NCBI RefSeq assembly: GCF_006337165.1
Contig: NZ_CP040896.1
Coordinates: 3,658,001-3,722,000 of the forward strand
Origin: Hymenobacter jejuensis
Lineage (GTDB): Bacteria > Bacteroidota > Bacteroidia > Cytophagales > Hymenobacteraceae
DNA: 64,000 bases
Reading direction: 5' to 3'
Made by a program: the position numbers and the translations under genes. The notes beneath the pieces are model-generated. The model did not search any database. It saw only the letters and a program-made list of their open reading frames with translations, and was not told where the DNA came from. Of the stretch, positions 474-62,838 are shown in pieces (positions within the stretch are counted from its first letter, which is position 1; each line of letters begins with the position of its first letter).

Positions 474-498
474 TATATTTCTGATAATCAAGTAGTTG
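474..498. repeat. Intergenic palindromic element, copy 1
   Basis: The core TGATAATCA matches the consensus exactly. The arms match 3/6 (left) and 4/6 (right) of TAAGTA/TACTTA. It lies directly after the egtB stop codon, inside the egtB-egtD gap. Confidence 0.6.
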
Positions 499-1803
499 CT
501 ATTTGGCCAGCCGAATGCCCGTAAATTGCCAGCGCTTGTCGGCCTGAAAGAAGTTACGGTAGGTAAGCCGGATGTGGCTTTCGGGCGTGGCACAGGAGCC
601 GCCGCGCAGCACCATCTGATTGATCATGAATTTGCCGTTGTATTCGCCCAACGCACCCGCCGCCCGCTCGTAGCCAGGGTAGGGGTGATAAGCCGAATAC
701 GTCCATTCCCAAACGTCGCCGAGCAGCTGGTGGCACTGTGCGGGGTCGGCGTCCGGCGATACGGGCTGTGGGTCGAATAGGCCGCTTTCCACGAAGGTGC
801 CGTTGGCCGCATCAGGGGCAAAGTGACGGGCCGCTATTTCCCATTCCTGTTCGGTGGGCAGGCGGGCACCCACCCAATGCGCGTACGCATCGGCTTCGTA
901 AAAGCTGACGTGCGTGACGGGCGCTGCCGGGTTGACGGGCTGCAACCCCGAGTGCGTAAAGCGGTGCCAGCCGTTGTCTTTCCGCACCCAATACAGCGGC
1001 GCTTCCCAGTGGGCTGCCTGCACCAGATCCCAGCCTTCGCCGAGCCAGTAGCGAAAATCCTGGTAGCCACCCGCTTCGATAAACTCAATGTATTCGGCAT
1101 TGGTAACCAAGCGGTTCTGAAGCGAGAAATCGGCTACGTACACTTCGTGCGGTGCCTGTTCATTGTCAAAGCAGAAGCCTGTGCCTTCGTAGCCGATGCG
1201 GTGCACGCCGCCGGGCACGGCCAGCCATTGCAGGGGCAGAGTGCGAGCCGGCGCCTCTTGCAAAGCCGCCGGCAGCGGTTGGTAGGCCGGAGCCAAAGGA
1301 CTGGTACTCAGGATGTATTTGATGTCCGTTACCAGCAGCTCTTGGTGTTGCTGCTCGTGTTGCAGGCCCAACTCAAACACGGTGCTAAAGGCCGCCGGCA
1401 GCGTGTCGGTAGTAGCCAAAAGCTGTTGCATGTGCTCGTCGACGTGGGCGCGGTACGCATACACATCTTGCAGCGGCGGGCGCGACAGCGTGCCGCGGTC
1501 GGCGCGGTTGACGCGGCTGCCCAGCGAATTGTAGTACGAATTGAACAGGAACGCGTAGTCGGCGTGATACACGCGGTACCCTGGCAGGTATTCGCCCAGC
1601 AAAAAAGTCTCGAAAAACCAAGTGGTGTGCGCCAAATGCCACTTCGGCGGGCTCACGTCGATAATGGGCTGTACCACAGTGTCTTCGGGGAGCAGCGGGC
1701 GGCACAGGATTTCGGTTTGGCGGCGCACTGCCTGGTAGCGTTCCAGCAGAGAGGCAGGCACCCGGACAGAGGCAGTAGCTGGCGTAGGTTGTGAAGTAGA
1801 CAT
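499..1803 (-). CDS. egtB: Ergothioneine biosynthesis sulfoxide synthase EgtB
   Basis: EgtB is a non-haem iron enzyme that joins a thiol donor to hercynine with O2 to give the sulfoxide precursor of ergothioneine. The 434-residue protein has an N-terminal DinB-like helical domain with iron ligands H56 or H59 (WHLAHTTW) and the HX3HXE motif at H149/H153/E155 (HEQQHQE). A C-terminal formylglycine-generating-enzyme-like domain follows (VTHVSFYEADAYAHW, ARLPTEQEWE, GDVWEWT, VLRGGSCATP). The ATG at 1803 is preferred; the frame extends upstream only to a TTG at 1812. It precedes egtD on the same strand. No egtA, egtC or egtE is visible, so the sulfur donor cannot be told from the window. A perfect 15-base palindrome lies 23 bases upstream of the start. 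Confidence 0.93.
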   Translation of the reverse strand: MSTSQPTPATASVRVPASLLERYQAVRRQTEILCRPLLPEDTVVQPIIDVSPPKWHLAHTTWFFETFLLGEYLPGYRVYHADYAFLFNSYYNSLGSRVNRADRGTLSRPPLQDVYAYRAHVDEHMQQLLATTDTLPAAFSTVFELGLQHEQQHQELLVTDIKYILSTSPLAPAYQPLPAALQEAPARTLPLQWLAVPGGVHRIGYEGTGFCFDNEQAPHEVYVADFSLQNRLVTNAEYIEFIEAGGYQDFRYWLGEGWDLVQAAHWEAPLYWVRKDNGWHRFTHSGLQPVNPAAPVTHVSFYEADAYAHWVGARLPTEQEWEIAARHFAPDAANGTFVESGLFDPQPVSPDADPAQCHQLLGDVWEWTYSAYHPYPGYERAAGALGEYNGKFMINQMVLRGGSCATPESHIRLTYRNFFQADKRWQFTGIRLAK

Positions 1804-1825
1804 GGCAAGCAAGGAAAGGACAGTG

Positions 1826-1840
1826 CTGAGGTAACCTCAG
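1826..1840. promoter_or_regulatory. Perfect palindrome upstream of egtB, candidate operator
   Basis: CTGAGGT-A-ACCTCAG is a perfect 7+1+7 palindrome 22 bases before the egtB start. A weak -7-like box (TGCTTTTG on the minus strand, 1881-1874) lies upstream, so the palindrome would fall in the leader. The regulatory role is inferred from symmetry and position only. Confidence 0.35.
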
Positions 1841-2069
1841 AACGTACGTGAAGTTTTGTCCAATAGCTACAAAAGCAAGAGCGGCACGAGCTAAGCTCGA
1901 CCAGTATTTAGCGCAGCACTTGCTTTTTAGTACGTAGAAGGTCGTCAGTAGTAAGTGGTATTTTGTGCAATAGCGAGAATATTTTGGATATTTTTTCAGC
2001 TATTGCCGTTGGGCTGCCCGTTGAAGCAGCACTGTTCGTTCCCGATTCCACCTCCAAAAACACTGGGCT

Positions 2070-2345: not shown

Positions 2346-2380
2346 TTCGTCCCCTTTCGGCCCGTAAGACCGCCTTCTTA

Positions 2381-2411
2381 AGCCTCTGCGCCCTGCGTAG
2401 AGGCTTTTTTT
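2381..2411 (+). terminator. Intrinsic terminator after the KGG protein gene
   Basis: AGCCTCT (2381-2387) pairs with AGAGGCT (2399-2405) and is followed by a run of T. Confidence 0.85.
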
Positions 2412-2435
2412 ATGTGTTTGATTATAAGGTAATTA
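2411..2435. repeat. Intergenic palindromic element, copy 2
   Basis: Core TGATTATAA (8/9), left arm 4/6, right arm 5/6. It lies just after the terminator and 83 bases before menC. Confidence 0.55.
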
Positions 2436-2517
2436 TCCTGTGCCTGATATAAGCTTTGGTTCGGCGGTAAGTTATTTCGGCGTTACTTATCGGCAGTTTG
2501 CCTGTTAGGATATCCGT

Positions 2518-3588: not shown

Positions 3589-3650
3589 TACAAGGGGCAG
3601 ACAATTAGCGGCTTTTTTTAGTAAATTACCGGACCCGCCTTCCCTTTCTT

Positions 3651-6250: not shown

Positions 6251-6275
6251 TAACTATTTGTAATTCAAATAATTA
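6251..6275. repeat. Intergenic palindromic element, divergent copy 3
   Basis: Both arms match 5/6 (TAACTA and TAATTA) but the core TGTAATTCA is diverged. It lies between the acyltransferase and esterase genes in an AT-rich gap. Confidence 0.4.
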
Positions 6276-7301: not shown

Positions 7302-7568
7302 GATGAATGCAGGAACTGCAAAAAATAGCGACCGATGTAAGCAGAAACACAACTATTTCCTAGCTTCAAATGCCCTATAATCAGCTTATTATGGCCTTGA
7401 AATATGACAAGTGGCCACCCGCCGAAAAAATTGTTTCTGCATAGTCTGCTATATAGTTATGATTTTGTAGGTTTGCGATAAGTAGTCGGCTTGCATACTA
7501 TTTTTCGGGCGCTGGCAGACTTGTCGCATTGTTTTTATTCCCACCAACCCTTTTAATCATTCAGCCTC

Positions 7569-12629: not shown

Positions 12630-14369
12630 CTACCGTAGCTTCATGTCGTCGATGATGCGGGCAATGCGCTCGGTCAAGATGCGGTTTTCCATCTCGTAAT
12701 CCACGGCCGATTTTAGCGGTTGTTTTACGCTGAAATAGAATTTGATCTTCGGCTCGGTACCCGATGGGCGGGCTGAAATCTTGCTGCCGTCGGCGGTGAT
12801 GAATTGTAGCACGTTGGAGGCTTCCAGGCCCGTTGGGGTTTCGATGCCCGTCCGCAGGTCATGTAGGGTACCTTTCTGATAATCACGCACTTCTACCACC
12901 GGTGAGCCGGCAATAGTAGCGGGCGGATTGGCCCGCAGATCGCGCATCATTTCCTGGATCTCCTCGGCGCCGCGCTGGCCTTTTTTCGTGATCGAAATCA
13001 AGTCTTCCTTATACAGCCCGTACTCGGCGTACATGGCTACCATTGCCTCGTACAGCGACTGGCCACGGTCTTTGGCCACGGCGGCCATCTCGGCAATAAG
13101 GGCGCAGGCCGACACTGCGTCTTTGTCGCGCACGAAGCTGCCGATCATGTAACCGTAGCTCTCCTCGCCGCCGCCGATGTACGTTTCCTTGCCTTCCAGA
13201 TCGCGGATGATGCCCGCAATGTACTTGAAGCCCGTGAGCGTCTGGTACGCCTTTACGCCGTGGGCATACGCAATATCGCCGAGCACGTCGCTGGTTACGA
13301 TGGTGTAGACGATGAAGTCCTGATCGGTCATTTTGCCGGCCTGTTTGCGGGCCGACAGCAAATAGTGCGTCAGCAAAGCTGCCGTCTGGTTGCCGTTGAC
13401 GAGCACCCATTCGCCGTTGCTGTTTTTTACGCCGATGCCTACCCGGTCCGAGTCGGGGTCGGTGGCCAGCACAATATCCGCGTCAAGCTGCTTGGCTTGG
13501 TCGAGGGCGATTTGCATGGCCGCTTTCTCCTCGGGATTGGGCGAAACCACCGTCGGGAAGTTACCGTCCGGGGTGGCCTGCTCCTGCACGATGTGCACAT
13601 TCGTAAACCCGAAGCGCTCTAATGCCTTGGGTACCAACGTGATACCAGTACCATGCAAGGGCGTGTACACGATCTTCAGATCGTGCTGGCGCTGAATCGC
13701 CGCCGGGTTGATGCTAAGTTTCTGTACTTCAGTAAGATATGCATCGTCCAAATCGGCACCGATCATGTGGATGCGCGACTCGTCGGCCTGAAACTTCACT
13801 TCGTCAACGGAATGAATGGCGTTGACCTCGTGGATGATGTTCTTGTCGTGGGGCGCAACTACTTGCGCGCCGTCCTGCCAATACACCTTATAGCCGTTGT
13901 ACTCTTTGGGGTTGTGCGAAGCCGTGACCACGACGCCGCTTTGGCACCCCAAGTGCCGAATCGTGTACGATAGCTCCGGCGTAGGTCGCAGATCCTCAAA
14001 CAGATACACCGTAATGCCGTTGGCCGAAAAAATGCCGGCCGCAATGCGCGCAAACTCCCGGCTGTTGTTGCGCGAGTCGTGGGCGATGGCCACCTTAATT
14101 TCCTGGTTCGGGAAAGATTTCACGAGGTAGTTGCAAAGCCCTTGCGTGGCCATGCCCAGGGTGTAGCGGTTCATGCGGTTGGAGCCCGTGCCCATTACGC
14201 CGCGCAGGCCGCCCGTGCCAAACTCCAGATTGCGGTAAAAAGCGTCGCTCAGGGCTTCTTCCTGGCTGCCATCCGCCATTAACTGACGAATATTAGCCTT
14301 TGATTCTTCGTCATAATTACCTGATAACCAGGTATTTATCTTTTCTTGGATTTCGGTAGTCAGCGCCAT
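12630..14369 (-). CDS. Phospho-sugar mutase (phosphoglucomutase/phosphomannomutase)
   Basis: The 579-residue cytoplasmic enzyme of the alpha-D-phosphohexomutase family interconverts hexose 1- and 6-phosphates. All four domains are marked: the phosphoserine loop VVTASHNPKEYNGYKVYW (about 140-157), the Mg-binding DPDSDRVG (about 303-310), the sugar-specificity loop GGEESYGYMIG (about 405-415) and the phosphate-binding RPSGTEPKIKFYFS near 540. The length (about 580) fits the PgcA/PGM2-like group, which acts on glucose or ribose phosphates. Sugar preference cannot be fixed by eye. It is flanked by hairpins, so likely monocistronic. Confidence 0.88.
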   Translation of the reverse strand: MALTTEIQEKINTWLSGNYDEESKANIRQLMADGSQEEALSDAFYRNLEFGTGGLRGVMGTGSNRMNRYTLGMATQGLCNYLVKSFPNQEIKVAIAHDSRNNSREFARIAAGIFSANGITVYLFEDLRPTPELSYTIRHLGCQSGVVVTASHNPKEYNGYKVYWQDGAQVVAPHDKNIIHEVNAIHSVDEVKFQADESRIHMIGADLDDAYLTEVQKLSINPAAIQRQHDLKIVYTPLHGTGITLVPKALERFGFTNVHIVQEQATPDGNFPTVVSPNPEEKAAMQIALDQAKQLDADIVLATDPDSDRVGIGVKNSNGEWVLVNGNQTAALLTHYLLSARKQAGKMTDQDFIVYTIVTSDVLGDIAYAHGVKAYQTLTGFKYIAGIIRDLEGKETYIGGGEESYGYMIGSFVRDKDAVSACALIAEMAAVAKDRGQSLYEAMVAMYAEYGLYKEDLISITKKGQRGAEEIQEMMRDLRANPPATIAGSPVVEVRDYQKGTLHDLRTGIETPTGLEASNVLQFITADGSKISARPSGTEPKIKFYFSVKQPLKSAVDYEMENRILTERIARIIDDMKLR

Positions 14370-16643: not shown

Positions 16644-16668
16644 TAAACATTTGGTAATCAATGATTTA
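16644..16668. repeat. Intergenic palindromic element, copy overlapping a start codon
   Basis: Core TGGTAATCA (8/9), arms 4/6 each. The next gene's ATG (16661) lies inside the right arm. Confidence 0.45.
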
Positions 16669-20159: not shown

Positions 20160-20990
20160 ATGCCTACCTCAACACCCGACCTTAGCACCCGGCCCATCGG
20201 AGTTTTCGACAGCGGTATCGGCGGCCTCACCGTCGCGCACGCCGTCAATAAAATGCTGCCCCACGAGCGCCTGATTTACTTCGGCGACACAGCACATCTG
20301 CCGTACGGTGACAAATCAACGGCTGCCATTCAGGCGTACAGCATCAAAATCTGCGATTTGCTGCTGCGCCAACACTGCAAAGTCATCCTGATTGCCTGCA
20401 ATTCGGCCTCGGCCGCGGCCTACGAGTTGGTGCGCGAATATGTAGGCTCGAAAGCGCGCGTGCTCAACGTAATCGACCCAATTGTGGAGCATATCGGCCA
20501 AGCCTACGCGGAGCGAAACGTGGGCCTGATCGGCACGAAGCAAACCGTCAACTCCAACGTATACAAGAAGAAAATCGACGACCTCGACGCCGGAGTGCAG
20601 CTCCAGTCGCTGGCTACGCCGCTTTTGGTGCCCATGATCGAAGAAGGGTTTTTCAACAACACCATCAGCGACAACATCATCCGCACGTACCTCAACAACC
20701 CTGAGCTGAGCAACATCGACGCCTTGGTGCTCGGCTGCACACACTATCCCTTAATTAAGGAGCAAATCGCCGACATTTACCAAGGCAAAGTACAGGTGCT
20801 GGATGCTTCAGATGTAGTAGCCAAGCACTTGAAAAAGTATCTGGAAGACAACCACTTAGCAGCAAAACCTACTTCTTTGGCACCGGTACACCACTTTTAC
20901 GTCTCCGACTTTACCCGCTCGTTTGAAGAAAGCACCCGCATCTTTTTCGGCCAGGAAGTGCATCTGGAGCATTATCCGCTGTGGGAGTAA
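20160..20990 (+). CDS. murI: Glutamate racemase
   Basis: MurI makes D-glutamate for peptidoglycan. The ATG at 20160 gives 276 residues; the frame is open to 20136 but the extra residues are not family-like. The two catalytic cysteines are in the expected contexts: LIACNSASAAAYE (about 80) and LVLGCTHYPLIK (about 196). The N-terminal GVFDSGIGGLTVAH is the family signature. An imperfect hairpin (ATACCACGC with GCGCGGTAT, 20096-20117) lies in the leader. A lipoprotein gene follows 30 bases later, and that gap is filled by a palindromic repeat. Confidence 0.93.
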   Translation: MPTSTPDLSTRPIGVFDSGIGGLTVAHAVNKMLPHERLIYFGDTAHLPYGDKSTAAIQAYSIKICDLLLRQHCKVILIACNSASAAAYELVREYVGSKARVLNVIDPIVEHIGQAYAERNVGLIGTKQTVNSNVYKKKIDDLDAGVQLQSLATPLLVPMIEEGFFNNTISDNIIRTYLNNPELSNIDALVLGCTHYPLIKEQIADIYQGKVQVLDASDVVAKHLKKYLEDNHLAAKPTSLAPVHHFYVSDFTRSFEESTRIFFGQEVHLEHYPLWE

Positions 20991-20996: not shown

Positions 20997-21021
20997 TAAG
21001 TAATTGATAATGAGATAATTA
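20997..21021. repeat. Intergenic palindromic element, strong copy
   Basis: Left arm TAAGTA (6/6), core TGATAATGA (8/9), right arm TAATTA (5/6). It occupies nearly all of the murI-lipoprotein gap and ends on the A of the next ATG (21021). Confidence 0.7.
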
Positions 21022-21692
21022 TGAAAAAGACATACTATCGTTTAGGCGATTGGCGGCGGAATGCTTTGTTGCTCGCCGCCGCTGCGAGCCTAGGGCTGGC
21101 GGTATTACCTGCCTGCTCAAGCAACAACGAGCGCCAAGATCCGAACGCCGACGAGTGGAGCGGCGAAACCTACAGCGAAGGCGTCATTACGGAGATAACG
21201 GAAGTACAACCCGGCGAGTGGAAAATCACGGCCGAGCGGCCTGCCGGCAAGGAAGAAGTAGCCGCCGTGATGCATCACTTTGATGGCAAGGTAGATACAC
21301 TCCAGGGCCAGGCTCTGCAACGCCAGATGCAAGACTACAGCCGTCGCTACCCCGAAAACCGGGTAGGCAGCACCGGCATGATGGACGTGCTCATGTGGAG
21401 CGGCATTGGCTACATGGCCGGCCGCTACATGACGCCCAACGCGGGATACTATGCCAATCCGGGCCTAGTGCAGCAAAACTCGGCCTGGCGGCAAAATGTA
21501 ACCCGCGAGCGCGAAACCCAAGGGCGTGGATTCTACGGCCGGGGCTTTTCGGGCAATCGTACATCGCGCACGGCTGGGGTGCGGGAGAGCCGCACATTTT
21601 CGCGTTCGGCCTACCGCAGCAGCGCGCCGCGTATGGGGCGTAGCAGCGGGTTTGGAAGCCGTGGCTTCGGTGGTAGAGGCTTTGGCGGGTAA
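21021..21692 (+). CDS. UPF0323-like lipoprotein with Gly/Arg-rich tail
   Basis: The 223-residue precursor has a signal peptide ending in a lipobox (LAVLPACSS), so it is probably membrane-anchored through Cys32. Residues 45-100 form a small beta-rich domain (GVITEITEVQPGEWKITAERPAGKEEVAAVM). A helical GMMDVLMWSGIGYMAGRYM segment follows. The last 60 residues are Gly/Arg/Ser/Phe-rich (RGFYGRGFSGNR, FGSRGFGGRGFGG). The layout resembles the UPF0323 lipoproteins of epsilonproteobacteria. It lies 21 bases before an ATP-grasp enzyme gene, as YgiB/YgiC-type pairs do. The assignment is by layout, not by alignment. Confidence 0.6.
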   Translation: MKKTYYRLGDWRRNALLLAAAASLGLAVLPACSSNNERQDPNADEWSGETYSEGVITEITEVQPGEWKITAERPAGKEEVAAVMHHFDGKVDTLQGQALQRQMQDYSRRYPENRVGSTGMMDVLMWSGIGYMAGRYMTPNAGYYANPGLVQQNSAWRQNVTRERETQGRGFYGRGFSGNRTSRTAGVRESRTFSRSAYRSSAPRMGRSSGFGSRGFGGRGFGG

Positions 21693-21714
21693 ATTGTTGA
21701 TTACATTGTAGTTA
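21690..21714. repeat. Intergenic palindromic element spanning stop-to-start gap
   Basis: It begins with the lipoprotein stop codon TAA and ends at the A of the next gene's ATG (21714). The right arm matches 5/6; the core TGATTACAT is diverged (6/9). Confidence 0.4.
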
Positions 21715-22895: not shown

Positions 22896-23644
22896 CTCGA
22901 AAATTCGCTCCTCATCGTACAGCGTTGAGTAAGCTTCTGAAAAGCAGTAGTTTATAAAGAAGAACCTTGAATAATTCCTAAATAGTCGATAGCGCCAACT
23001 CGACAGTTAAAATATAGAATTCGAAAAAAATAAAGACGTTAAATAATTATAAACACATTTCCCCGTTGGCTTTATAATGTGATTTCATTAGACATAGGTT
23101 GTGTATTTAAATAATGCAAATTTTGTAGGCAATTATCATGTTATTTGGAATTGAGATTGGTTTCTTATCTATAGTTGATCTTTGGCAGCGGCAGTTGATT
23201 TAAAATCTGAAACCTCTTTCCCTGAACCACAAGCTGCTTCACGTCTTCGCAGACTATATCGAATAGTGATGAGCACACCTATCTAAACAAGGGAAAATGA
23301 AAAAATAGTGCTAGTGATTGCACTAGAAAACGTGCAAATTTGTGCCGTGACATTGAATGGATAAATCTGGCTTTGGGTTAAGAGGAGGACTGATGAGAGT
23401 GTCAGATAAATGATATTATTGCTCTGGAAACGCAGCTGAAGTCATAAAAATTCGCAGCCTATCTGGCATGAAATATGAAGGCGAGCGCAACCTAATCCAC
23501 AACAAACGCCAACTTTATACTTTGAATAATTATATTTTATCAAAAAAAATTCCTTGTCCATAAGATTTTGAAATCCGTAAAACACCGCTGATTACAGAAT
23601 AGTATAAGCGTTTCCTTTCGTAACCTTTCTTTCATTCCATACAC
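22896..23644. other. AT-rich non-coding stretch upstream of a T9SS cargo gene
   Basis: No reading frame of credible length or codon use was found on either strand. The base composition is visibly more AT-rich than the surrounding genes. A small hairpin (CTAGTG, 4-base loop, CACTAG at 23311-23326) is present. A near-match to the -7 box (TATACTTTG) lies near 23516, but no -33 match is spaced correctly. It may hold a long leader or a small RNA. Confidence 0.5.
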
Positions 23645-27481: not shown

Positions 27482-27506
27482 TAACTATTTGATAATAAGG
27501 TACTTA
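27482..27506. repeat. Intergenic palindromic element, strong copy
   Basis: Left arm TAACTA (5/6), core TGATAATAA (8/9), right arm TACTTA (6/6). It ends on the A of an ATG that opens a 10-codon frame. Confidence 0.65.
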
Positions 27507-30847: not shown

Positions 30848-30872
30848 TAACTGATTCATAATCAACTATATG
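30848..30872. repeat. Intergenic palindromic element ending on the tsaC start codon
   Basis: Core TCATAATCA (7/9), left arm 4/6, right arm 3/6; the final ATG is the tsaC start. Confidence 0.4.
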
Positions 30873-37551: not shown

Positions 37552-37618
37552 GTCTTGTTGTAAAATATTGATTGATAAGCAGTTATAATCTGCTTGGGTT
37601 TGGCATTGCTCTATACAC

Positions 37619-40600
37619 ATGAAACAAAACTACCAGCTGACAATCTTCTTTCGCTGGAGCATTTGCCTGTTGCTGCTAGTAGGCGGCTTCCAAGCGAAAG
37701 CGCAGTCCGGGCCCTTCGGCAACGAATGGATTGTGCCCGGTCAGCAATACTATAAAATCAAGGTTACTTACGATGGTTTACATCGTCTTGATTATCAATA
37801 TCTTGCTAACTCAGGTGTGGCGGGCGTTCAGCCCAGCCAGTTTCAACTCTGGCGTCGGGGCAAAGAGGTAGCTATCTACGTGGGCGGCAATCCCGCTACG
37901 TTCGACGCCAACACCTTCATCGAGTTTTACGGCCAGCGCAACGACGGTCAGCTGGACCGGGGCATGTACAAAAAGCCCACGGATCAGCCGCAGAACCTCT
38001 ACAGCCTCTACACCGACACGGCCGCATATTTCTTGACGTGGTCGGCGGGACGGGCAGGCAAGCGCATGGCTCAGCCCAGCGCATCGGCCCCTGGCACGGC
38101 GCATCCTTATCGAGTGCAAAATCGGCTACGCATTTTTGCAAATGCCTTCTCAAACGTCGATGTAGCTACTCAGGTGTATTTCCCGTGGGCCGAAGCCGGG
38201 GAAGGCTTTTTGTCGCCTTCGTACGGTTTTGGTGCTTCCGATTTGGGGGTTACCACGGTGCAGGAAATCGATTCGATCCGCAACATCGTGGCCGGTTCCA
38301 GCATTCGGGTGGAGGTGACGCTGGTAGGGCATAGCCGGATGGCAACAGAGCACATCAGCAACGTATCGGTGGTGCCGCCGAGCGGACAGGCGCGGCTGCT
38401 GGGCACCATGACGTATAAGGATTACTCGAGCAGCAAGCGAACATTTTCGCTGCAACGCTCTGATATCGGCACCGACGGCAAGGTGAAACTACAGTTCCAA
38501 GCGGCGGGCCCCAGCGACCCATCCGCGCCCCGGGACCGTTCGCGCATCGCCAACATCCGGGTACTGTATTCGCAGGCCAACCGGTGGTTTGCGCGGCAGC
38601 GGAGCGTTTCGTTTGCCAACGATTCGACGTTGAGCAGACCCGCTTATTACGTCCTCGACAGCATCCCAAATTCTGTTGCCGGCTTCGACGTAACGGACCC
38701 TTACAACGTGCAGCGGGTTGAGGGCGTGGCCACGGCTGGCACCCAGCGCGGCTTCGTGTTTCCCAGTGCCACCGATCGCACGCATACGCTGCTGCTTGCC
38801 GACGAAGCCCGCCCATACATTCCGGGTCCGGCCAAGCGGATTACATTCCGGACCATTACGCCAAGTGCCTATAACTTCTTGATTATCAGTAACGGGGTAT
38901 TGATGAAGCCAGTAGGCAGCGTCACCAACCCGGTGCGGGCGTATGCCGAGTACCGCGGCTCGGCCGCGGGCGGCAAATACGACACCCTGGTCGTGACCAG
39001 CCAGCAGCTTTTCGACCAGTTTCACTACGGCGAGTACTCAGCCTTGGCCATCCGGCACTTCGCGCAATGGATGTTGACCAATGCTCGCCCCAAATACCTG
39101 CTGCTGCTGGGTAAAGGCGTGCATACCGGGGAGAGAGCCGGCAATGGAGCGCTGTACCGGCAGTTTCCGGAGCAGTATTCGGTGAAGGACTTGGTGCCCA
39201 CGAGCACGCGTGGGCCGTCGGATAATTTTTTCTCGGCCGATTGGGAGAAAGACGAATACATCGCCCGCATTCCTACGGGACGCATTCAGGCCAATACGCC
39301 GCAACAGGTTCTGAATTACCTAAACAAGCTGAAGGAGCACGAGGCGCTGGGCGCGGAGCCCTGGCGCAAAAACGTGCTGCATCTGGTAGGTGGGCACGAT
39401 GCTGTAGAAACTGCTCAGTTTCAGGGTTATATGAACAGATATAAGAACTCTGTCGAGAAGCCGTGCTTTGGGGGCAAAGTGGTAAAAACCTACGTGCACC
39501 CACCCGAAGCCGGGGCAAACCTGGTTGATATCAACATTGCGCCGGAACTGAACGCCGGGCTAAGCCTGATTACGTATTTCGGCCACGGTTCGCCCGAATT
39601 CTACGACCTCAACCTGGGTTCACCCTACAATCCGAGCACCAACTACAACAACAAAGGCAAGTATCCGGTCTTTATCATCAATGGCTGTGCCGGCGGCTAC
39701 AGCTATACCGAGCACATTACGGTAGGCGAAAACTGGACGCTGGTCGGCGATAAAGGCGCGGTGGGCTTCATGGCCAGCGCCGTAGAGGGGCTCGATTCGG
39801 ATCTGAACGAGTATTGCAGCACCATGTACCAGGAACTCTTCAACGACCCGAACTGGTACGGTAAGCCGATGACGGAAGTATACAACGAAGTAGCACGGCG
39901 GTTGCAGCCGCGGCTGGCCAGCTATCCTTTCGGAACGGCCCTGCTGATAAGCACCGTGTGGCAAGGCGACCCCGCGTTGCGCCTCTACTCGCCCGCTAAG
40001 CCCGATTTTGTCACTTCCAACGATAATCTTCAACTTCAGGATGGCAACGGGGGCGTGGCTCAAGCCACTTCTGCGAGCTTCAACCTGAACCTGCGCGAAA
40101 GCAACACGGGCAATTTGTGCGGCGCCGAAAACGTGGATATTAAGGTAACGCGCTTCTATCCGGCAGGGGCGAGCCCGGCCAGCGTCGATTACCACTTCAC
40201 GATGCGGCAAGGCCGGCAGGATTCGACCTATGTTCTGGCCATTCCTAACACACCGCCCACGTCGGGCAGCAGCTTTGGCGCCAACCGATTTGTTGTGACC
40301 CTCGACGACAAAAACCTGGTCGATGAACTCAGCGAAACTAACAACCAGGCCGAGCTAAACATCAACCTGTTGCAGGGGGGGGTAACTACTCTCATGCCGA
40401 CCGAGTTTGCCATTGTGCCCAGCACGACGGTGCGTTTGGTAGGACAATCCAACCTGCCGGGCAAGACCGCCCGGGGCTTTGAAATGCAGTTGGATACGGT
40501 GCCCACCTTCAACAGCAACGTATTGCAAAACCGGGTCGTTCAGGATGCCTACGTACCGCAATGGCAGGTTACGCTGCCCGCCGTCAACCGCGACAGCGTG

Positions 40601-42175
40601 GTGTGGTACTGGCGTTTGCGCCTGCAAACCCCACAGGTTGGCGAAGACCCGGAATGGGCCGTGAGTTCGTTCCGCGTCATCAACGGCAGCATGGGCGGTT
40701 GGTCGCAGAGCCATTACGGACAATTCGCGCGCGATAAGCAAGCGGGCCTGAGCAATGCCGCGCCCTCCGGCAAGTGGAGTTTCGCCAACACAACACAGGG
40801 CACGATCACATCCACGCTGATCGGGCGGGCTCAGCAATGGAATTCGCTCTACCAAACGGTGCGCACCGCGCCATCCGGCAGCTACACGCTACGCCTGATT
40901 GGGGTGGATGCCAATAATAAAAAGACCGTGCTAAACCCCGATATAAAGGATCGGGTGTATTCATTAGCTAGCATTTCGGCGGCGGCCTACCCGTATTTGC
41001 AACTGGAACTGGAGATACGCGATGCCTCAAGCGGCACAGCTCCACAACTCAAACAGTGGCTTGTGACCTACCAAGGCGTGCCCGAAGGTGTGGCCCGCCC
41101 GGACAAAGTAGCCGCGTCTACCTACGAAGCGGCCACGTTGGCCCAGCAAGCGGCCAGCACCGGCTACGTGGAGTTTCCGGTCGTTTTCGACAACGTTTCT
41201 CCCCTCGATTTCGGCAAGCCGCTGCAAACGCAGGTTTCGTTGCTGGACGAAAATGGCAAGTCAGCTACCCAAACGGTGGCGGCGACCCCCGACGTGCTAA
41301 AAGCCGATGGCACAGCTACTTTCAAGATGAAAGTTAACGTGTTTGGCCTCTCGGGCCGGGTGTCAGGCCGGGCAATCGTCAACACGGTACCGGTGCCTGA
41401 GCAGTACTTCTTCAATAATGAAATTATGCTGCCGGCCTTCAATGTGCCCGGCAACACCGTGCCGCCTGTTTTGGACGTAGCCTTTGACGGTCAGCACATT
41501 CTCAATGGTGACATCGTGTCGCCAGTGCCGGTGATTACGGTGCAGTTGCAAAGCAGCGACCGGCGGCGGGCAATCAAGGACCCGGCAAACTTCGATCTGT
41601 TCTTAACCAAATCGGGGCAGCCTACCATTAAGATTGACGTGCGAGCTTCCAACGTGGTCTTTGCTTACGATTCGCTCAAAGGCACGGCCCGCATCGACTT
41701 TCAGCCTGGAAAAGCTTCGCCGCTCGCCGACGGCACCTACACCCTGCGGGCGCAAGGCCGCGGCGCCAACGGCGTAGCCGCCGGTACGGAAGCGTACGAG
41801 GTTGCCTTCCAAGTGATTAGCGCTTCTACCATCACCAATCTTTACCCGTATCCGAACCCGATTACGAGCAAGGCCAAGTTTGTCTTTACGCTGACGGGCT
41901 CGGAGTTGCCGCGCAACATGAAAATCCAGATCATGACGCTCACGGGCAAAGTCGTACGGGAGATCATGATGGATGAGCTGGGGCCGTTGCGCATCGGCAA
42001 CAACATCACCGATTTTGCCTGGGACGGCACCGACGAGTTCGGCGACCGCTTGGCCAATGGTACCTACCTCTACCGCGTCATGCTCGACACCGCCAACAAG
42101 CCCTTTGAGCACCGCATCACCGCTGGTGATAAGTCGTTTAAGAAAGACTGGGGCAAACTGGTACTGTTGAGGTAA
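37619..42175 (+). CDS. porU: Type IX secretion system sortase PorU
   Basis: The 1518-residue exported C25 gingipain-type peptidase cleaves the sorting domain from T9SS cargo at the cell surface. A signal peptide (SICLLLLVGGFQAKAQ) is followed by a large N-terminal beta domain. The C25 domain shows the catalytic His in LITYFGHGSPEFY (about 653) and the Cys in PVFIINGCAGGYSY (about 690). A long Ig-like and FlgD-like C-terminal region ends ITNLYPYPNPITSKAKFVFTL and LANGTYLYRVML. The length is larger than P. gingivalis PorU but in the range of other Bacteroidota. The stop codon TAA is the start of a palindromic element. Confidence 0.93.
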   Translation: MKQNYQLTIFFRWSICLLLLVGGFQAKAQSGPFGNEWIVPGQQYYKIKVTYDGLHRLDYQYLANSGVAGVQPSQFQLWRRGKEVAIYVGGNPATFDANTFIEFYGQRNDGQLDRGMYKKPTDQPQNLYSLYTDTAAYFLTWSAGRAGKRMAQPSASAPGTAHPYRVQNRLRIFANAFSNVDVATQVYFPWAEAGEGFLSPSYGFGASDLGVTTVQEIDSIRNIVAGSSIRVEVTLVGHSRMATEHISNVSVVPPSGQARLLGTMTYKDYSSSKRTFSLQRSDIGTDGKVKLQFQAAGPSDPSAPRDRSRIANIRVLYSQANRWFARQRSVSFANDSTLSRPAYYVLDSIPNSVAGFDVTDPYNVQRVEGVATAGTQRGFVFPSATDRTHTLLLADEARPYIPGPAKRITFRTITPSAYNFLIISNGVLMKPVGSVTNPVRAYAEYRGSAAGGKYDTLVVTSQQLFDQFHYGEYSALAIRHFAQWMLTNARPKYLLLLGKGVHTGERAGNGALYRQFPEQYSVKDLVPTSTRGPSDNFFSADWEKDEYIARIPTGRIQANTPQQVLNYLNKLKEHEALGAEPWRKNVLHLVGGHDAVETAQFQGYMNRYKNSVEKPCFGGKVVKTYVHPPEAGANLVDINIAPELNAGLSLITYFGHGSPEFYDLNLGSPYNPSTNYNNKGKYPVFIINGCAGGYSYTEHITVGENWTLVGDKGAVGFMASAVEGLDSDLNEYCSTMYQELFNDPNWYGKPMTEVYNEVARRLQPRLASYPFGTALLISTVWQGDPALRLYSPAKPDFVTSNDNLQLQDGNGGVAQATSASFNLNLRESNTGNLCGAENVDIKVTRFYPAGASPASVDYHFTMRQGRQDSTYVLAIPNTPPTSGSSFGANRFVVTLDDKNLVDELSETNNQAELNINLLQGGVTTLMPTEFAIVPSTTVRLVGQSNLPGKTARGFEMQLDTVPTFNSNVLQNRVVQDAYVPQWQVTLPAVNRDSVVWYWRLRLQTPQVGEDPEWAVSSFRVINGSMGGWSQSHYGQFARDKQAGLSNAAPSGKWSFANTTQGTITSTLIGRAQQWNSLYQTVRTAPSGSYTLRLIGVDANNKKTVLNPDIKDRVYSLASISAAAYPYLQLELEIRDASSGTAPQLKQWLVTYQGVPEGVARPDKVAASTYEAATLAQQAASTGYVEFPVVFDNVSPLDFGKPLQTQVSLLDENGKSATQTVAATPDVLKADGTATFKMKVNVFGLSGRVSGRAIVNTVPVPEQYFFNNEIMLPAFNVPGNTVPPVLDVAFDGQHILNGDIVSPVPVITVQLQSSDRRRAIKDPANFDLFLTKSGQPTIKIDVRASNVVFAYDSLKGTARIDFQPGKASPLADGTYTLRAQGRGANGVAAGTEAYEVAFQVISASTITNLYPYPNPITSKAKFVFTLTGSELPRNMKIQIMTLTGKVVREIMMDELGPLRIGNNITDFAWDGTDEFGDRLANGTYLYRVMLDTANKPFEHRITAGDKSFKKDWGKLVLLR

Positions 42176-42197
42176 GCGTTTGATTAAAAGATAGATA
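42173..42197. repeat. Intergenic palindromic element at the porU stop codon
   Basis: The first three bases are the porU stop TAA. Left arm 4/6, core TGATTAAAA (7/9), right arm 4/6. Confidence 0.4.
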
Positions 42198-42350: not shown

Positions 42351-42375
42351 TAAGTAGATTATAATCAATTACTTA
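42351..42375. repeat. Intergenic palindromic element, best copy, within a 51-base inverted repeat
   Basis: Both arms are perfect (TAAGTA and TACTTA); the core TTATAATCA is 8/9. It forms the centre of a larger inverted repeat (42338-42356 with 42370-42388, 18/19 matches) that overlaps the folA stop codon and may act as its terminator. Confidence 0.75.
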
Positions 42376-46451: not shown

Positions 46452-46476
46452 TAATCGTTTGATAATCAAGTGCTTA
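46452..46476. repeat. Intergenic palindromic element, perfect core
   Basis: Core TGATAATCA (9/9), right arm TGCTTA (5/6), left arm 3/6. It abuts the terminator after the permease gene. Confidence 0.6.
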
Positions 46477-50647: not shown

Positions 50648-50672
50648 TTAATGCCTGATTATCAAGTAGAAA
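50648..50672. repeat. Intergenic palindromic element, perfect core
   Basis: Core TGATTATCA (9/9); arms 3/6 each. It lies 25 bases after the stop codon of the lipoprotein gene on the minus strand. Confidence 0.5.
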
Positions 50673-51210: not shown

Positions 51211-51798
51211 TTATTGCTTTAATTCGAAAAGAGGCAGCGGCTGTAGCTTGCTGTATTTGCCGCCCAACGAGCTAATCTCTTCTTGGTGGAGCTGCAAGTA
51301 ATTGTTGAATTGTTTGGCTGCTTGGTCATAGCGGACTCTGAAACCAACCACTTGATTATCAGTATCTTGTATTTCTTGCGTTAAGGTTTTTACGCCTTCC
51401 GTGGGCTGGCCGTTGTTGGGCAAGGCCACCGTATACAGCACATGCAACAGCGAATCTTGCGCCGAGTCGTAAGCGTCGATTTTATCCGAAGCCGCCATCG
51501 ATTGCTGGTCGTAGCGAATGCGCTTCAGGCGGTCGTTGGCGTGGGCAAGCTGCTGAAGCTGAGCGCGGTCGGTGCCGGGCTGCGATTCTAACTCGCGCAG
51601 CACTTGTTTGGTAGCCGTTACTTTGGCGTCGTCGCTGGCGATCATCTCGGCCCAGCGCGCATCCACGGTGTCGCGGAGCACGTCCAGCTGAACCTTGGCG
51701 GCCTGTGGCGAAGCGGGATCTACGGCCTTAGGAGTGCGGTTACAAGCGTCGAGGCCGGCCAAGAGCAGGAGCAAGGCCAGCGGCAAAATTTTTCTCAT
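51211..51798 (-). CDS. Helical hypothetical lipoprotein at the end of the paa operon
   Basis: The 195-residue precursor (ATG 51798; frame open to 51834) has a lipobox LAGLDACNRTP (Cys near 19). The mature part is almost all helical and charged (VDARWAEMIASDDAKVTATKQVLRELESQPG, LTQEIQDTDNQVVGFRVRYDQAAKQF, then LHQEEISSLGGKYSKL), probably a coiled coil or helical bundle. It follows paaD by 32 bases on the same strand, so it is probably co-transcribed, but nothing ties it to phenylacetate. Confidence 0.65.
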   Translation of the reverse strand: MRKILPLALLLLLAGLDACNRTPKAVDPASPQAAKVQLDVLRDTVDARWAEMIASDDAKVTATKQVLRELESQPGTDRAQLQQLAHANDRLKRIRYDQQSMAASDKIDAYDSAQDSLLHVLYTVALPNNGQPTEGVKTLTQEIQDTDNQVVGFRVRYDQAAKQFNNYLQLHQEEISSLGGKYSKLQPLPLFELKQ

Positions 51799-51830
51799 GC
51801 TGCCAATAACGTCGAAAAGGGGCAAAATAT

Positions 51831-52316
51831 TCACAGCGGTTTAAATTGTTCGAAGATTTGGCGGCAGTCGTGGCAGTAGTGCACAGCACGGCACAGCGTG
51901 GCTCCAAACGGCGTCCGCAATTCGGTGTTGTGGCCGTGGCAGCGGGGGCACTCGGCATACTCCAAAAAGTCGAGGTCGAGCACTTGGCCTTCCAGCATCG
52001 GCGGCGGTGTCAGGCCGTGCTGGCGCAAGCCGGCGCGGCCTTTTTCCGTTACCATATCCGACGACCACGCTTCCGCCAGGCTTATTTCTACCTGCACCTC
52101 CGGCACGCCGTGTGCGCGAAGGGTTTGCTCCACGTCGCGGCGCATGTAATCCATGGCCGGACAACCAGCAAAAGTGGGCGTCATGCGGACCACTACTCGC
52201 CCCGAATCCTCTACCTCCACGGCCCGAATCACCCCCAAATCCACGAGCGAAACCGTCGGGATTTCCGGGTCTTTCACCGCTTCGAGCCAGGAAAATATGT
52301 CGGCTTTGGAGTACAC
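51831..52316 (-). CDS. paaD: 1,2-Phenylacetyl-CoA epoxidase subunit PaaD
   Basis: PaaD has an N-terminal MIP18/FeS-assembly domain (DIFSWLEAVKDPEIPTVSLVDLGVIRAVEV, TFAGCPAMDYMRRDVE) that is thought to mature the epoxidase. A C-terminal zinc-ribbon segment carries ECPRCHGHNTE and VHYCHDCRQIFEQFKPL (four Cys). The 161-residue length is normal. The start is the GTG at 52316 (no in-frame ATG upstream). It follows paaC after a 36-base gap filled with a palindromic element. Confidence 0.9.
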   Translation of the reverse strand: MYSKADIFSWLEAVKDPEIPTVSLVDLGVIRAVEVEDSGRVVVRMTPTFAGCPAMDYMRRDVEQTLRAHGVPEVQVEISLAEAWSSDMVTEKGRAGLRQHGLTPPPMLEGQVLDLDFLEYAECPRCHGHNTELRTPFGATLCRAVHYCHDCRQIFEQFKPL

Positions 52317-52330: not shown

Positions 52331-52355
52331 GAAGTAATTGATAATCAGATACTTA
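52331..52355. repeat. Intergenic palindromic element, strong copy, inside the paa operon
   Basis: Left arm 5/6 (GAAGTA), core TGATAATCA 9/9, right arm TACTTA 6/6. Read on the minus strand, it begins with the paaC stop codon TAA (52355-52353). Confidence 0.75.
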
Positions 52356-53108
52356 CCATTCGGCCGTAGGGTCGAGGCGGAATACCTCGGCCATTTCGTC
52401 GAGCAGAGGCTGTAAGTACTCAGTGTGCTGGCCCGTACGTCCGCCATATACCGGCGTAAGAGAGGCCAAATCAGGCATTTCCAACGCTGTTTGGTTGAGC
52501 ACTTTCGTGATGTTTTCCTCCCAGCGCGTCTTAATTGCGTCTTCGCCTACAAAGATGCCGTCGGCGATGATGGCTTCTTCCTGAGCAGTTTTTTCAAACA
52601 AACCCAACGCGTAAGGCAAGGTGAAATTCAGCGAGTTCTGAAGGCGCTCAATGGCTTCTTCCGTAGCCGAGCCCAACTGTTTTACCCACGTGTTGGCGTG
52701 CAAGGTGTGGTACTTCAACTCGCCTTTTAGCTTGCGGGCTACCTGCGCCAGCGGCTCGTAGCTGCTCTGTGCAAGTGCCTCAAAGCGAAGTAGTTCGGCG
52801 TGGTCGTAGAGAAAGTGACGGATCAGGCTGAAGTCGTATTCACCGATGGGCAACTCGACCAGCTGTGCGCAATGAAACTGTGGGGCATTCCGCGTGAAAG
52901 CAACCATATCTGGTTCCGCCTCGCCGAGTTGGTGCAGCAACGAGTACAGCTGCAAGCTGTGGCCCAACTTGTCCTGGGCCATCGACGAAAACGCAATGTC
53001 TTCCTCCAGAATAGGGCCTAGGCCGTTCCACTCCGAGTTGCGGTGCCCCAAGATGAGCTGGTCGTCGGCCAAGCGGTAGAGAAGGTCTTTTAGCGCGTCG
53101 GTGTTCAT
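52353..53108 (-). CDS. paaC: 1,2-Phenylacetyl-CoA epoxidase subunit PaaC
   Basis: PaaC is the ferritin-like structural partner of PaaA. From the ATG at 53108 it has 251 residues: DALKDLLYRLADDQLILGHRNSEWNGLGPILEEDIAFSSMAQDKLGH at the start, then GEYDFSLIRHFLYDHAEL and LKGELKYHTLHANTWVKQLG. The frame extends to 53267 but that part lies in the paaB gene and is not family-like. It overlaps paaB by four bases (ATGA), so the two are translationally coupled. Confidence 0.93.
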   Translation of the reverse strand: MNTDALKDLLYRLADDQLILGHRNSEWNGLGPILEEDIAFSSMAQDKLGHSLQLYSLLHQLGEAEPDMVAFTRNAPQFHCAQLVELPIGEYDFSLIRHFLYDHAELLRFEALAQSSYEPLAQVARKLKGELKYHTLHANTWVKQLGSATEEAIERLQNSLNFTLPYALGLFEKTAQEEAIIADGIFVGEDAIKTRWEENITKVLNQTALEMPDLASLTPVYGGRTGQHTEYLQPLLDEMAEVFRLDPTAEW

Positions 53109-53782
53109 GCCTGCGGAGCGTTTGACTTTTGTTCTTGTTTGAACAGTTCGATTTTGTCCATCACTTTGTACGCGATGGCGTCGCGGTATTTTTTGTCGGG
53201 CGTGGTGCTCCAGATGTCGCGATCGTCTTCGTCGGAGCGTAGGATATCGGCCGAGCGTACCACCCACACATTCACCACGGGGCGCTGTTCGCCAAACACG
53301 GCTTTGGCTACCGTCAATGCTTCTCGCGGACTCGAAGCCCGCACTTTGCCCACGTGCACATGCGCCTTGCCGCGCTTCTTGAGGTGGAAAATATCGTAGT
53401 CTTCTTCGCCGGCCGCGTAAGCGAGTTCTTCTTCCTTCGATTCAGAAACCGGCGTTGGAGTTTCACTGGCTTCGGTAGGGAGGGTGTCGTATACTGATTC
53501 TGTATCGTTCACGTAGTCAGATACTTGTACGCAACGCGTGGGCGTTACCCACATACCCGTGCAGGCAAACCGGCGGCTATACTGCTCCTTTGCAAACAGA
53601 AACGCCACGTCCAGCGATGGCGCGTGCACCGGCCCTACGTAGGCGTATGCGGTGCCTTCTTTTTTCTGGTGAAAGACCTCGTACGTCTCGAACTGGTCTA
53701 GTTCGGGCTTGTCGGGTGGGGGCGGAGGCGCATCGGGCAAAGCCAAGCGGTTGATGCGCGGATCGAGGGAGGAGAGGGACAT
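53105..53782 (-). CDS. paaB: PaaB-type epoxidase subunit with two tandem PaaB domains
   Basis: Typical PaaB is about 95 residues; this chain is 225 (ATG 53782). Two copies of the domain are visible. N-terminal copy, about 30-95: YEVFHQKKEGTAYAYVG, then SLDVAFLFAKEQYSRR and GMWVTPTRCVQVS. C-terminal copy, about 130-205: YDIFHLKKRGKAHVHVG, then PREALTVAKAVFGEQR and VNVWVVRSADIL. A Ser/Thr/Glu-rich linker (TEASETPTPVSESKEEE) joins them. It overlaps paaC by four bases. PaaB bridges PaaA-PaaC units, so a double form may act as a covalent bridge. The N-terminal copy looks more diverged in its C-terminal end. Confidence 0.85.
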   Translation of the reverse strand: MSLSSLDPRINRLALPDAPPPPPDKPELDQFETYEVFHQKKEGTAYAYVGPVHAPSLDVAFLFAKEQYSRRFACTGMWVTPTRCVQVSDYVNDTESVYDTLPTEASETPTPVSESKEEELAYAAGEEDYDIFHLKKRGKAHVHVGKVRASSPREALTVAKAVFGEQRPVVNVWVVRSADILRSDEDDRDIWSTTPDKKYRDAIAYKVMDKIELFKQEQKSNAPQA

Positions 53783-55548: not shown

Positions 55549-55573
55549 TAAGCAACTGATTATAAAAAGCTTG
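55549..55573. repeat. Intergenic palindromic element, partial copy
   Basis: Left arm TAAGCA (5/6), core TGATTATAA (8/9), right arm 3/6. It lies between the tetR promoter and thiL. Confidence 0.45.
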
Positions 55574-55704: not shown

Positions 55705-56736
55705 ATGAGCGATTCCATCACGCCCCTCGATAAAGTCGGCGAATTCGGCCTGATCCGCCGCATTCAACAAACCGTTACGCTTCGGCAAGCCAGCACTTCG
55801 TTAGGCATTGGCGACGACGCAGCCATTATTACGCCCGACGCCAACCACGATTTGGTCGTCAGCACCGATTTGCTGGTTGAAGGCGTGCACTTCGACCTCA
55901 CATTTTGCCCAATTAAGCACTTGGGTTACAAGGCGATAGCCGTGAACGTGTCCGATGTAGCTGCCATGAACGCCATTCCGACTCAATTGGTCGTGGGCAT
56001 TGCAGTTGGCGCCCGCTATTCGGTGGAAGCTATTGAAGAACTTTACGAAGGCATGCGGCTAGCCTGCGAAGCCTACAACGTCGACTTAGTTGGCGGCGAC
56101 ACCACGGCCAGCCGCGGCGGCCTCACGATCAGTGTTACGGCGATGGGCCAAGTGCCTCATGGGCAAGCAGTTAAGAGAGGAGGGGCCCGCCCCAACGATT
56201 TGATCTGCGTGACCGGCGATTTGGGCGGCGCATTTCTGGGCTTGCAGGTGCTGGAGCGCGAAAAGCAAGCCTACATGGCCGACCCCGAGATGCAGCCCGA
56301 TTTGGAGAAGTACACGTACGTCGTGCAGCGCCAATTGCGCCCCGAAGCCCGCATGGACGTCATCCACGAGCTCCGCGACCTCGGCGTAGTGCCAACGGCC
56401 ATGATCGACATCTCCGACGGGCTCGCTTCGGAAGTGCTGCACATCTGCCAGCAATCGGGCACGGGCGCGCGGGTGTTCTCCGAAAACCTGCCCATCGCCA
56501 ATCCCACGCTGGAAGTCGCCGCGGAGTTCAACCTCGACCCCATCATGTGCATGCTCAACGGCGGCGAAGACTACGAACTGCTGTTCACCGTCCCGCTCTC
56601 GGCCCACGACAAGCTCAAAAACCACCCCGACATCACCATTATCGGCCACATCACCGAGAAAAGCGACGGCGTTAACCTCATTACCAAAGCCGGCCAACCC
56701 GTGCCGTTGCGTGCACAAGGCTGGCAGCATTTTTAG
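55705..56736 (+). CDS. thiL: Thiamine-monophosphate kinase
   Basis: ThiL phosphorylates thiamine monophosphate to thiamine diphosphate. The 343-residue protein belongs to the PurM/AIR-synthase fold group: EFGLIRRIQQTV near the start, LGIGDDAAII (about 33), LLVEGVHFDL (about 58), NVSDVAAMNAIPTQLVVGIAVG (about 80) and VGGDTTASRGG (about 130). DISDGLASEVLHICQQ (about 235) and CMLNGGEDYELLFTV follow. A -7 match TACCTTTG (55677-55684) and a hairpin (ACTCCT/AGGAGT, 55639-55670) precede it; no TPP riboswitch motif was seen. Confidence 0.92.
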   Translation: MSDSITPLDKVGEFGLIRRIQQTVTLRQASTSLGIGDDAAIITPDANHDLVVSTDLLVEGVHFDLTFCPIKHLGYKAIAVNVSDVAAMNAIPTQLVVGIAVGARYSVEAIEELYEGMRLACEAYNVDLVGGDTTASRGGLTISVTAMGQVPHGQAVKRGGARPNDLICVTGDLGGAFLGLQVLEREKQAYMADPEMQPDLEKYTYVVQRQLRPEARMDVIHELRDLGVVPTAMIDISDGLASEVLHICQQSGTGARVFSENLPIANPTLEVAAEFNLDPIMCMLNGGEDYELLFTVPLSAHDKLKNHPDITIIGHITEKSDGVNLITKAGQPVPLRAQGWQHF

Positions 56737-56808: not shown

Positions 56809-56822
56809 TAAACTCAAAGGGC

Positions 56823-57573: not shown

Positions 57574-57586
57574 GATGCCCTCCAAA

Positions 57587-59104: not shown

Positions 59105-59142
59105 ACAAAGAGGCCATTTGCGAAAGCAAATGGCCTCTTTGT
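59105..59142 (-). terminator. Perfect hairpin terminator, probably of the type B cargo gene
   Basis: Two 17-base arms (59105-59121 and 59126-59142) around GAAA. It lies 18 bases past the stop of the minus-strand gene at 59160. Confidence 0.88.
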
Positions 59143-59166
59143 AAGACGCTTATAATCAATTAATTA
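59142..59166. repeat. Intergenic palindromic element at a stop codon
   Basis: Left arm 4/6, core TTATAATCA (8/9), right arm TAATTA (5/6). It overlaps the stop codon (59162-59160, minus strand) of the type B cargo gene. Confidence 0.6.
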
Positions 59167-62100: not shown

Positions 62101-62795
62101 GTGGGAGGTGGGTTGAAAAAACTGGGCGGCGTGTTGCCGAGGTTGCCCCCGTAGGGCGTGCCGAAAGAATACACCAGCCGATCGCCGTCGGCGTCGTAGG
62201 CGTTATTGATGATGATGCTCGTATCGCCTTGGCAGATGACGGCCACGGCCGTATCCGAGAAAGTTGGCGTGCTGTTCGGGATTAGTGGCGGCGAAATGTC
62301 GGTGTAGAGCGTCAGGCCGGTGCCGCCGGGGTTGGAAAGGTTGCGGATGTCGTTGTTGCGCGCCGATTCGGTGTAAAAGGCGTAGTAGCCCGCCGCCGAA
62401 ACCGGCAGATTCACAATGAGTTCGTACTTGCACAGCCGCACCGGCACGGGGCTATTGGTGCTGCCCGCCGCGCAGTCGCCCGAGGTGGCCGGCTTGATCA
62501 GTGCGTTGCTTACCCGCGGAAAACTGTACACACCAATGCGCGTGCCGTTTGGCGATTTGCTGTACAGCCCGATCGGGATGACGTCGCGGCCGTTGGGAAA
62601 ATTGGAAGTGACATCGGCATTGAAGTACACAAACACCGTGATGCGGTACCGAAACGGTTGGCCCACCGGTCCTTTATCGTCGAGGTATTGATAGCCCATT
62701 TCGCCGCCGAGCAGGTGCGTAGCCGCCGCCGGTCGCGCTCCTAAGCCAAGTATCGTCACCAAAATGAAAAAAATGCGCAGTAAATGTGGCTGCAT
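59160..62795 (-). CDS. T9SS type B (gliding-motility-associated CTD) cargo protein with Ig-like repeats
   Basis: 1211 residues from the ATG at 62795 (frame open to 62849). A signal peptide (LLRIFFILVTILGLGARPAAA) is followed by THLLGGEMGYQYL, an opening often seen in large Bacteroidota surface proteins. Tandem PKD/SprB-like Ig domains cover about 410-950, with repeated phrases GNIVSGQGTTSITVAWG, GTIVSGQGTSAITVNF and YQWTVQGG/FQWTVTDG. The type B sorting domain is at the end: LYNIITPNGDGKNDVFFIDNVQLYAGNQLAIFNRWGKEVY and GMYYYLFKL. Type B CTDs are used for surface or extracellular export without loss of the CTD signal logic. The next gene upstream on this strand is a type A cargo. Confidence 0.85.
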   Translation of the reverse strand: MQPHLLRIFFILVTILGLGARPAAATHLLGGEMGYQYLDDKGPVGQPFRYRITVFVYFNADVTSNFPNGRDVIPIGLYSKSPNGTRIGVYSFPRVSNALIKPATSGDCAAGSTNSPVPVRLCKYELIVNLPVSAAGYYAFYTESARNNDIRNLSNPGGTGLTLYTDISPPLIPNSTPTFSDTAVAVICQGDTSIIINNAYDADGDRLVYSFGTPYGGNLGNTPPSFFNPPPTSVVYASTYNVAQPFGPGRGSYAFLDPQTGLSRYAAPFLGKYVVAVDVKEYRVINGQEVLVGTTRRDIQLIAQTCQPNQAPQFTASTTAIKEFTIEEGQSLSFDLAARDPELKTLSLRVNSVLLDGPGGFDATFANDVGTVSNGSGSALISGTGNVSGTFRFNSRCGNARATPYDVVVTAADQACGSKSVAQIIRITVKRASPPTAITGDALVCDQSKPSTYTVTGTNASSYLWRVRGGAIQGPATGSSVSVLWNTAGTGTLSARGITAFGCTTDSVARTVEVRPVSTLSVSADVAICVGTSATLTASGGQNYTWTGGGQTFTGASITVTPNTTTIYTVTSTDGLCSNSRQVTVTVRPQTAADVITGSRSVCPTVQGVTYSVVNPQNTDYQWTVQGGNIVSGQGTTSITVAWGATNANASVQVVGRNAFGCLTAPFVLPVRINELLATPKPNGPLRVCQTDGPFTYQTQLTNGSSYAWQVIGGTQVATNQASIQVNWTRPGIGKLVVTETSNPNGSDIRCLGQSDTLYVTVLPSPAANLAITGPDRVCANSGPVSFTLPGLATSTYQFTLQNAAQQNVAFTAAGNTASVATFATPGVYTLTARETSASACAGPVYTKTFTVDPLPVVTITGPANVCPEGLNGLRYSVPGATGAAFQWTVTDGTIVSGQGTSAITVNFLASNITKTVTVVPTSSFGCTGALASFSVKPDNAAITLNVATVDPQNDHQVLLSVPNLGDNGSRTRVLRRDAGSTGAFAVVPTILTGTRFADASADADAKAYTYRVELTNACGTVIASQEHTIIHTEAVATEGKGGRSEGEVSIQWSDYKGFAVKQYQVFRHIDNAKDELVATIPAGQPLQYKLSTGSQGFNQCFRVTAVSDDASALLTYSNDACVTFENKIALYNIITPNGDGKNDVFFIDNVQLYAGNQLAIFNRWGKEVYSTTNYRNTWGGEGLGAGMYYYLFKLPSGTSYKGWFEIVKDN

Positions 62796-62813
62796 ATGTA
62801 GGGAGGATGCGTG

Positions 62814-62838
62814 TAAATGCCTGATTAACAAGTGTTTG
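62814..62838. repeat. Intergenic palindromic element between two cargo genes
   Basis: Left arm TAAATG (4/6), core TGATTAACA (8/9), right arm 3/6. It fills part of the gap after the type A cargo stop on the minus strand. Confidence 0.45.

Follow-up and report, generated by a model that had tools for sequence, protein, structure and literature searches.

The window, meaning the whole 64,000-nucleotide stretch of Hymenobacter jejuensis DNA analysed here, carries repeated copies of a 25-base palindrome, refined in this work to YAANNNNYTGATWATCARNNNNTTR and classed as a putative palindromic IHF-type site. With mismatches counted against this pattern and no strand assigned, intergenic copies lie at 474–498 (one mismatch), 2411–2435 (two), 6251–6275 (three) and 7367–7391 (two), in convergent gaps at 27482–27506 (one) and 46452–46476 (none), in a divergent gap at 55549–55573 (one) and in a short tandem gap at 62814–62838 (one). 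A further convergent gap holds the copy at 42351–42375 (two mismatches), which forms the tip of a longer inverted repeat, CGGCGCTAAATTTA / TAAATCTAGCGCCG. Other copies touch gene boundaries, as at 16644–16668 (gene start, one mismatch), 30848–30872 (overlapping the next ATG, two) and 59142–59166 (gene end, one), and weak sites with three mismatches each occur at 37561–37585 and 50648–50672. Copies that the earlier note had missed are those at 14314–14338 (one mismatch), near the start of the minus-strand ORF 12630–14369, for which the gene call starts at 14279; at 22930–22954 (two), downstream of a gene end at 22895; at 37781–37805 (one), within a gene; and at 51345–51369 (none), within the gene 51211–51834.

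Several copies share letters with stop or start codons, as that note had described. The first TAA of the weak site at 21690–21714 (four mismatches) is the stop codon, at 21690, of the ORF ending at 21692, and that of the site at 42173–42197 (three mismatches) is the stop, at 42173, of a 1518-aa ORF ending at 42175; on the minus strand, the ORF 52353–53267 stops on the TTA at 52353–52355 that closes the site at 52331–52355 (one mismatch). The site at 20997–21021 (one mismatch) fills the gap from an ORF end at 20990 to the ATG at 21021, and the last A of this element and of the one at 21690–21714 is the A of the ATG at 21021 and at 21714, respectively. Fifteen of the 16 copies originally listed match YAANNNNYTGATWATCARNNNNTTR with at most three mismatches, the one at 46452 with none, while the copy at 21690 falls outside this limit with its four. 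Among the three weaker candidates proposed alongside them, the one at 7367 is real, the one at 37565 was out of register and belongs at 37561, and no copy exists at 56735 (eight mismatches).

Motif, symmetry and abundance

Abundance was assessed in a sampled set made up of 60 evenly spaced 20-kb stretches and the window, together 1.26 Mb or about one quarter of the 5.09 Mb genome, with genes called by a simple purpose-made caller. The proposal that the palindrome is real and far above chance is borne out by these counts: the pattern as first written has 284 matches across the 5.09 Mb genome when up to three mismatches are allowed, its reversed form none, and in the 202 kb of sampled intergenic DNA YAANNNNYTGATWATCARNNNNTTR is found 36 times exactly, 110 times with at most one mismatch and 273 times with at most three. 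In the same DNA, 40 palindromes with permuted half-site letters give means of 0, 0.05 and 8.8 at these three levels, and reversed YAANNNNYTGATWATCARNNNNTTR gives 0, 0 and 19. Extrapolation from about a quarter of the genome yields approximately 1000 intergenic and several hundred imperfect coding copies genome-wide, and site density between 1.7 and 3.0 Mb is normal in the sampled stretches. Mismatch counts were used in place of an iterated weight matrix, which led to AT-rich noise.

The logo of 129 H. jejuensis sites reads Y1 A2 A3, a free position 4, partly free positions 5–7, and Y8 T9 G10 A11 T12 W13 followed by the mirror image, with AT-rich edges extending to about 20 bases left and right of the palindrome centre. 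The G and C that the first consensus had placed at positions 4 and 22 are without conservation. The same positions are fixed in the Cytophagales genome G196 (181 sites), where the N4 is nearly free; in both logos the specified positions are 1–3, 8–18 and 23–25.

The IHF consensus has been given as TAAnnnnTTGATW / WATCAAnnnnTTR (PMC10380432); a table in PMC6907758 places WATCAANNNNTTR in the H-NS row, apparently through a row swap, and the consensus was therefore taken from PMC10380432. The palindrome corresponds to TAAnnnnTTGATW set head to head with its own reverse complement, the central W being common to both; each half matches WATCAANNNNTTR in the logos of both genomes, and T/C at position 1, A/G at position 25 and A/T at position 13 match the ends and the W of the IHF consensus. 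This likeness was spotted post hoc, after the motif had been derived. The half-site occurs 208 times in intergenic DNA versus 17 times for its reversed sequence, and half-sites beyond the strong palindromes are also in excess (97 versus 11). A Fur-like box, which has TGATWATCA in common with the palindrome, was considered and rejected, as its outer positions differ (A at 8 and T at 6 in Fur; Y and A here). A literature search with the core 11-mer returned no Cytophagales paper, and one on BHFa returned nothing useful.

Distribution and conservation of the copies

Sites of the strict set in H. jejuensis number 1.80 per kb in convergent gaps, 0.73 in tandem gaps, 0.31 in divergent gaps and 0.018 in coding DNA; the preference for convergent gaps is not seen in G196. 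Within genes of the H. jejuensis sample, 23 copies with at most one mismatch and 97 with at most two were counted, as against 0–1 and 2–9, respectively, in synonymous-codon shuffles. The corresponding figures in G196 are 20 versus 0–4, and a coding excess over synonymous shuffles is also present in G178 and absent from G073 and G012, both low-copy species. The in-gene excess over synonymous shuffles establishes that copies are made by point substitution.

Spacing in H. jejuensis is more even than under a null that kept gap classes and allowed one site per gap, as seen in the coefficient of variation (0.72 versus 0.87 ± 0.04), in the 5-kb variance ratio (0.59 versus 0.88 ± 0.07) and in the number of occupied gaps adjoining each other (37 versus 63 expected, p = 4e-6). 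Evenness is not significant in G196, which is assembled in short contigs. Typical and atypical DNA of the sample, the latter with few genes, have similar site densities.

Counted at no more than one mismatch to the palindrome, copies number 510 in H. jejuensis, 51 in another Hymenobacter (G064) and 0–4 in most sampled Hymenobacter; other Cytophagales have from 0 to 403, G196 has 5293 and other Bacteroidota have 0–18. The pile-up is confined to some Cytophagales lineages. In the Cytophagales genome G139, an identical 25-mer, TAAGTTTTTGATATTCAATGAATTG, recurs across many contigs, which suggests an insertion sequence bearing an IHF-type site.

Retrieval of 26 loci with exact matches in other Hymenobacter placed about ten of them at one common position. 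Of the 30 Hymenobacter species compared there, 29 carry the palindrome, with at most three mismatches, on the stop codon that ends a rhomboid gene (2 of 30 for the reversed control), and the position of the stop codon within the element shifts (offsets −3, −7, −11 and −13) while the element stays; a small PLDc_N lipoprotein gene lies approximately 90–110 bases downstream. A2, A3, T9, A17 and T24 are invariant in the ortholog alignment, which shows no covariation. The copy at this locus is ancestral in Hymenobacter. Between the palindrome and the lipoprotein gene, a second conserved block, approximately TATATCTATTT followed by GTGCGTAAAG, was observed at L344 and 29 orthologous loci (L341–L370); it looks like a putative alternative-sigma promoter.

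An IhfB-like candidate protein

HU-family searches returned one strong gene per Hymenobacter genome, encoding an IhfB-like protein that has a VRGFGSF segment and in which the arm-tip proline of HU/IHF is replaced by isoleucine. At the equivalent of IhfB R46, a residue that takes part in TTR recognition, arginine is present in 17 of 17 aligned Cytophagales proteins, HupB having V and IhfA S there. IHF kinks DNA twice, with 9 bp between the kinks, a spacing that presumably corresponds to the T8–T9 and A17–A18 steps of the palindrome.

A search for an additional HU-family gene that would set high-copy genomes apart found none, and a nearly identical HU-family protein occurs in Hymenobacter with 0–4 sites; the protein alone therefore does not explain copy number. 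No HU-family gene of the IhfB-like type was found in the draft assemblies G196 (95% complete), G179 and G176, an absence that may be due to assembly incompleteness. Two further kinds of HU-related protein were noted. One Cytophagales family has a short HU-like protein that lacks the DNA-binding arms (EPITLENFGKFHIED...; L203 in G184 and L204 in G196), its G196 copy containing an internal stop codon. HU-type proteins of this family, namely L198 (G118), L194 (G184) and L195 (G144), keep RGFGSF and have a strongly diverged N-terminal region with inserted residues.

Competing explanations and significance

The palindrome is best read, with a probability of roughly 0.58, as a symmetric site of the IHF type, recognised by an IHF-like homodimer, which favours and narrows the earlier suggestion of a site for a nucleoid or abundant DNA-binding protein. 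We infer which protein binds, that it bends the DNA and what benefit results as follows: two IHF half-sites, TAAnnnnTTGATW and its reverse complement, around a central W and within AT-rich flanks would give a footprint of approximately 41 bp; the most likely binder would be the single full-length, IhfB-like HU-family protein, which as the sole such subunit found would act as a homodimer, and a homodimeric binder would account for a palindromic site; and this protein would bend the DNA sharply at every copy. One copy would be an old site in a promoter region, retained across Hymenobacter; point substitutions within gaps and codons would have created further copies, here and independently in other Cytophagales lineages, and the resulting evenly spaced grid would most likely serve chromosome architecture.

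Comparison with known systems brings out both likenesses and differences. E. coli IHF is a heterodimer acting on asymmetric sites that have not accumulated on such a scale; each half of the palindrome shares with its sites the consensus WATCAANNNNTTR, the N4 gap, the W and R positions and the AT-rich surroundings, whereas here the palindrome is complete and the searches found a single HU/IHF-type subunit gene in each genome. RIB elements, composite repeats containing REP units, are likewise repeated IHF-type sites that often lie at gene 3' ends; unlike in RIBs, the repeating unit here is the bare site, no conserved sequence being found outside the palindrome and its AT-rich edges that would place an IHF site inside a REP-containing composite repeat.

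Independent arms, unshared flanks and coding copies together argue for a protein site rather than a mobile repeat or an RNA hairpin, both of which the earlier note had entertained. High copy number, mainly intergenic position and species specificity would suit a palindromic repeat that is mobile or REP-like and dispersed by a transposase, and REP sequences with RAYT transposases are likewise abundant, species-specific intergenic palindromes; the elements described here, however, have no conserved stem and no sign of mobility, and their arms vary independently. Not one exact 25-mer duplicate exists among 175 sites, the best flank likeness between any two copies is at most 30–34 of 50 bases, motif positions are conserved around a free N4, copies are built from codons and spacing is even. 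Unrelated flanks and coding copies already refute a mobile origin, to which we attach next to no probability; a survey of REP sequences by RepRanger does not mention Hymenobacter. An RNA hairpin, or a part of an intrinsic terminator at gene 3' ends, is highly improbable and as a general role already largely refuted, even though site density peaks in convergent gaps in H. jejuensis and terminator-like inverted repeats carry the palindrome at their tip in about 29 of 173 copies (~17%), these long-inverted-repeat copies lying, among those classified, in convergent and tandem gaps only. Outside this subset, and apart from the 4/22 pair, where the signal is weak, complementarity between the arms of H. 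jejuensis and G196 sites generally does not exceed expectation; orthologous copies have no surplus of compensatory changes, G196 sites do not favour convergent gaps, copies occur within genes, and Rfam gave no match above the gathering score within the window. Between some convergent genes, a perfect inverted repeat whose arms are longer than 20 bases has a copy exactly at its midpoint (e.g., AACGCTGAAAAGCGTCAAATCA / TGATTTGACGCTTTTCAGCGTT).

Two further readings keep recognition by a protein and differ in what that protein is or does. A homodimeric regulator or nucleoid protein unrelated to HU/IHF would fit all of the motif evidence, as any homodimer would, and no HU-type gene of the IhfB-like kind was found in G196, the genome richest in sites; the exact match to the IHF consensus, including the N4 spacing, the Y/R ends and the AT-rich flanks over approximately 41 bp, speaks against such a protein and makes it quite improbable. 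It is unlikely, in our judgement, that the palindrome is a DNA uptake sequence amplified in competent lineages through receptor preference together with transformation and recombination, although the genome-wide excess, the even spacing and the occurrence of both coding and non-coding copies are what such a sequence would display, as are copy numbers in the hundreds to thousands in some species with almost none in their sisters and the ~17% of tested copies on terminator-like inverted repeats. Amplified uptake sequences such as DUS in Neisseria and USS in Pasteurellaceae are short non-palindromic motifs with a likewise large copy number, lineage specificity, presence in genes and gaps, even spacing and overlap with terminators. 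Neisserial DUS often act in terminators as inverted pairs (PMC2397512). Unlike DUS and USS, the palindrome is also a single conserved promoter-region site in species that do not accumulate it, and such a lone copy in 29 of 30 Hymenobacter suits an ordinary protein site better; moreover, the exact agreement with the IHF consensus would have to be fortuitous, and no difference in site density is seen between typical and atypical DNA, as far as the few atypical genes sampled can tell. That an uptake sequence of Cytophagales took over an IHF-like recognition motif, for example via DNA carried by extracellular IHF/HU, appears doubtful to an even greater degree. We know of no uptake sequence in Bacteroidota, and such a takeover, if true, would give this phylum its first self-recognition uptake motif, which would also be the first with a palindromic sequence.

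The usual picture of nucleoid proteins is one of binding to scattered sites that are only loosely defined; here, a precise, symmetric site of the putative IHF type can evidently multiply within one lineage from a few to hundreds or thousands of evenly spaced copies, while its sisters remain near zero, and this lineage contrast makes an effect on chromosome folding, gene expression or DNA exchange testable between close relatives. If the role of the palindrome is architectural, the genome would be building its own grid of DNA bends through point substitution.
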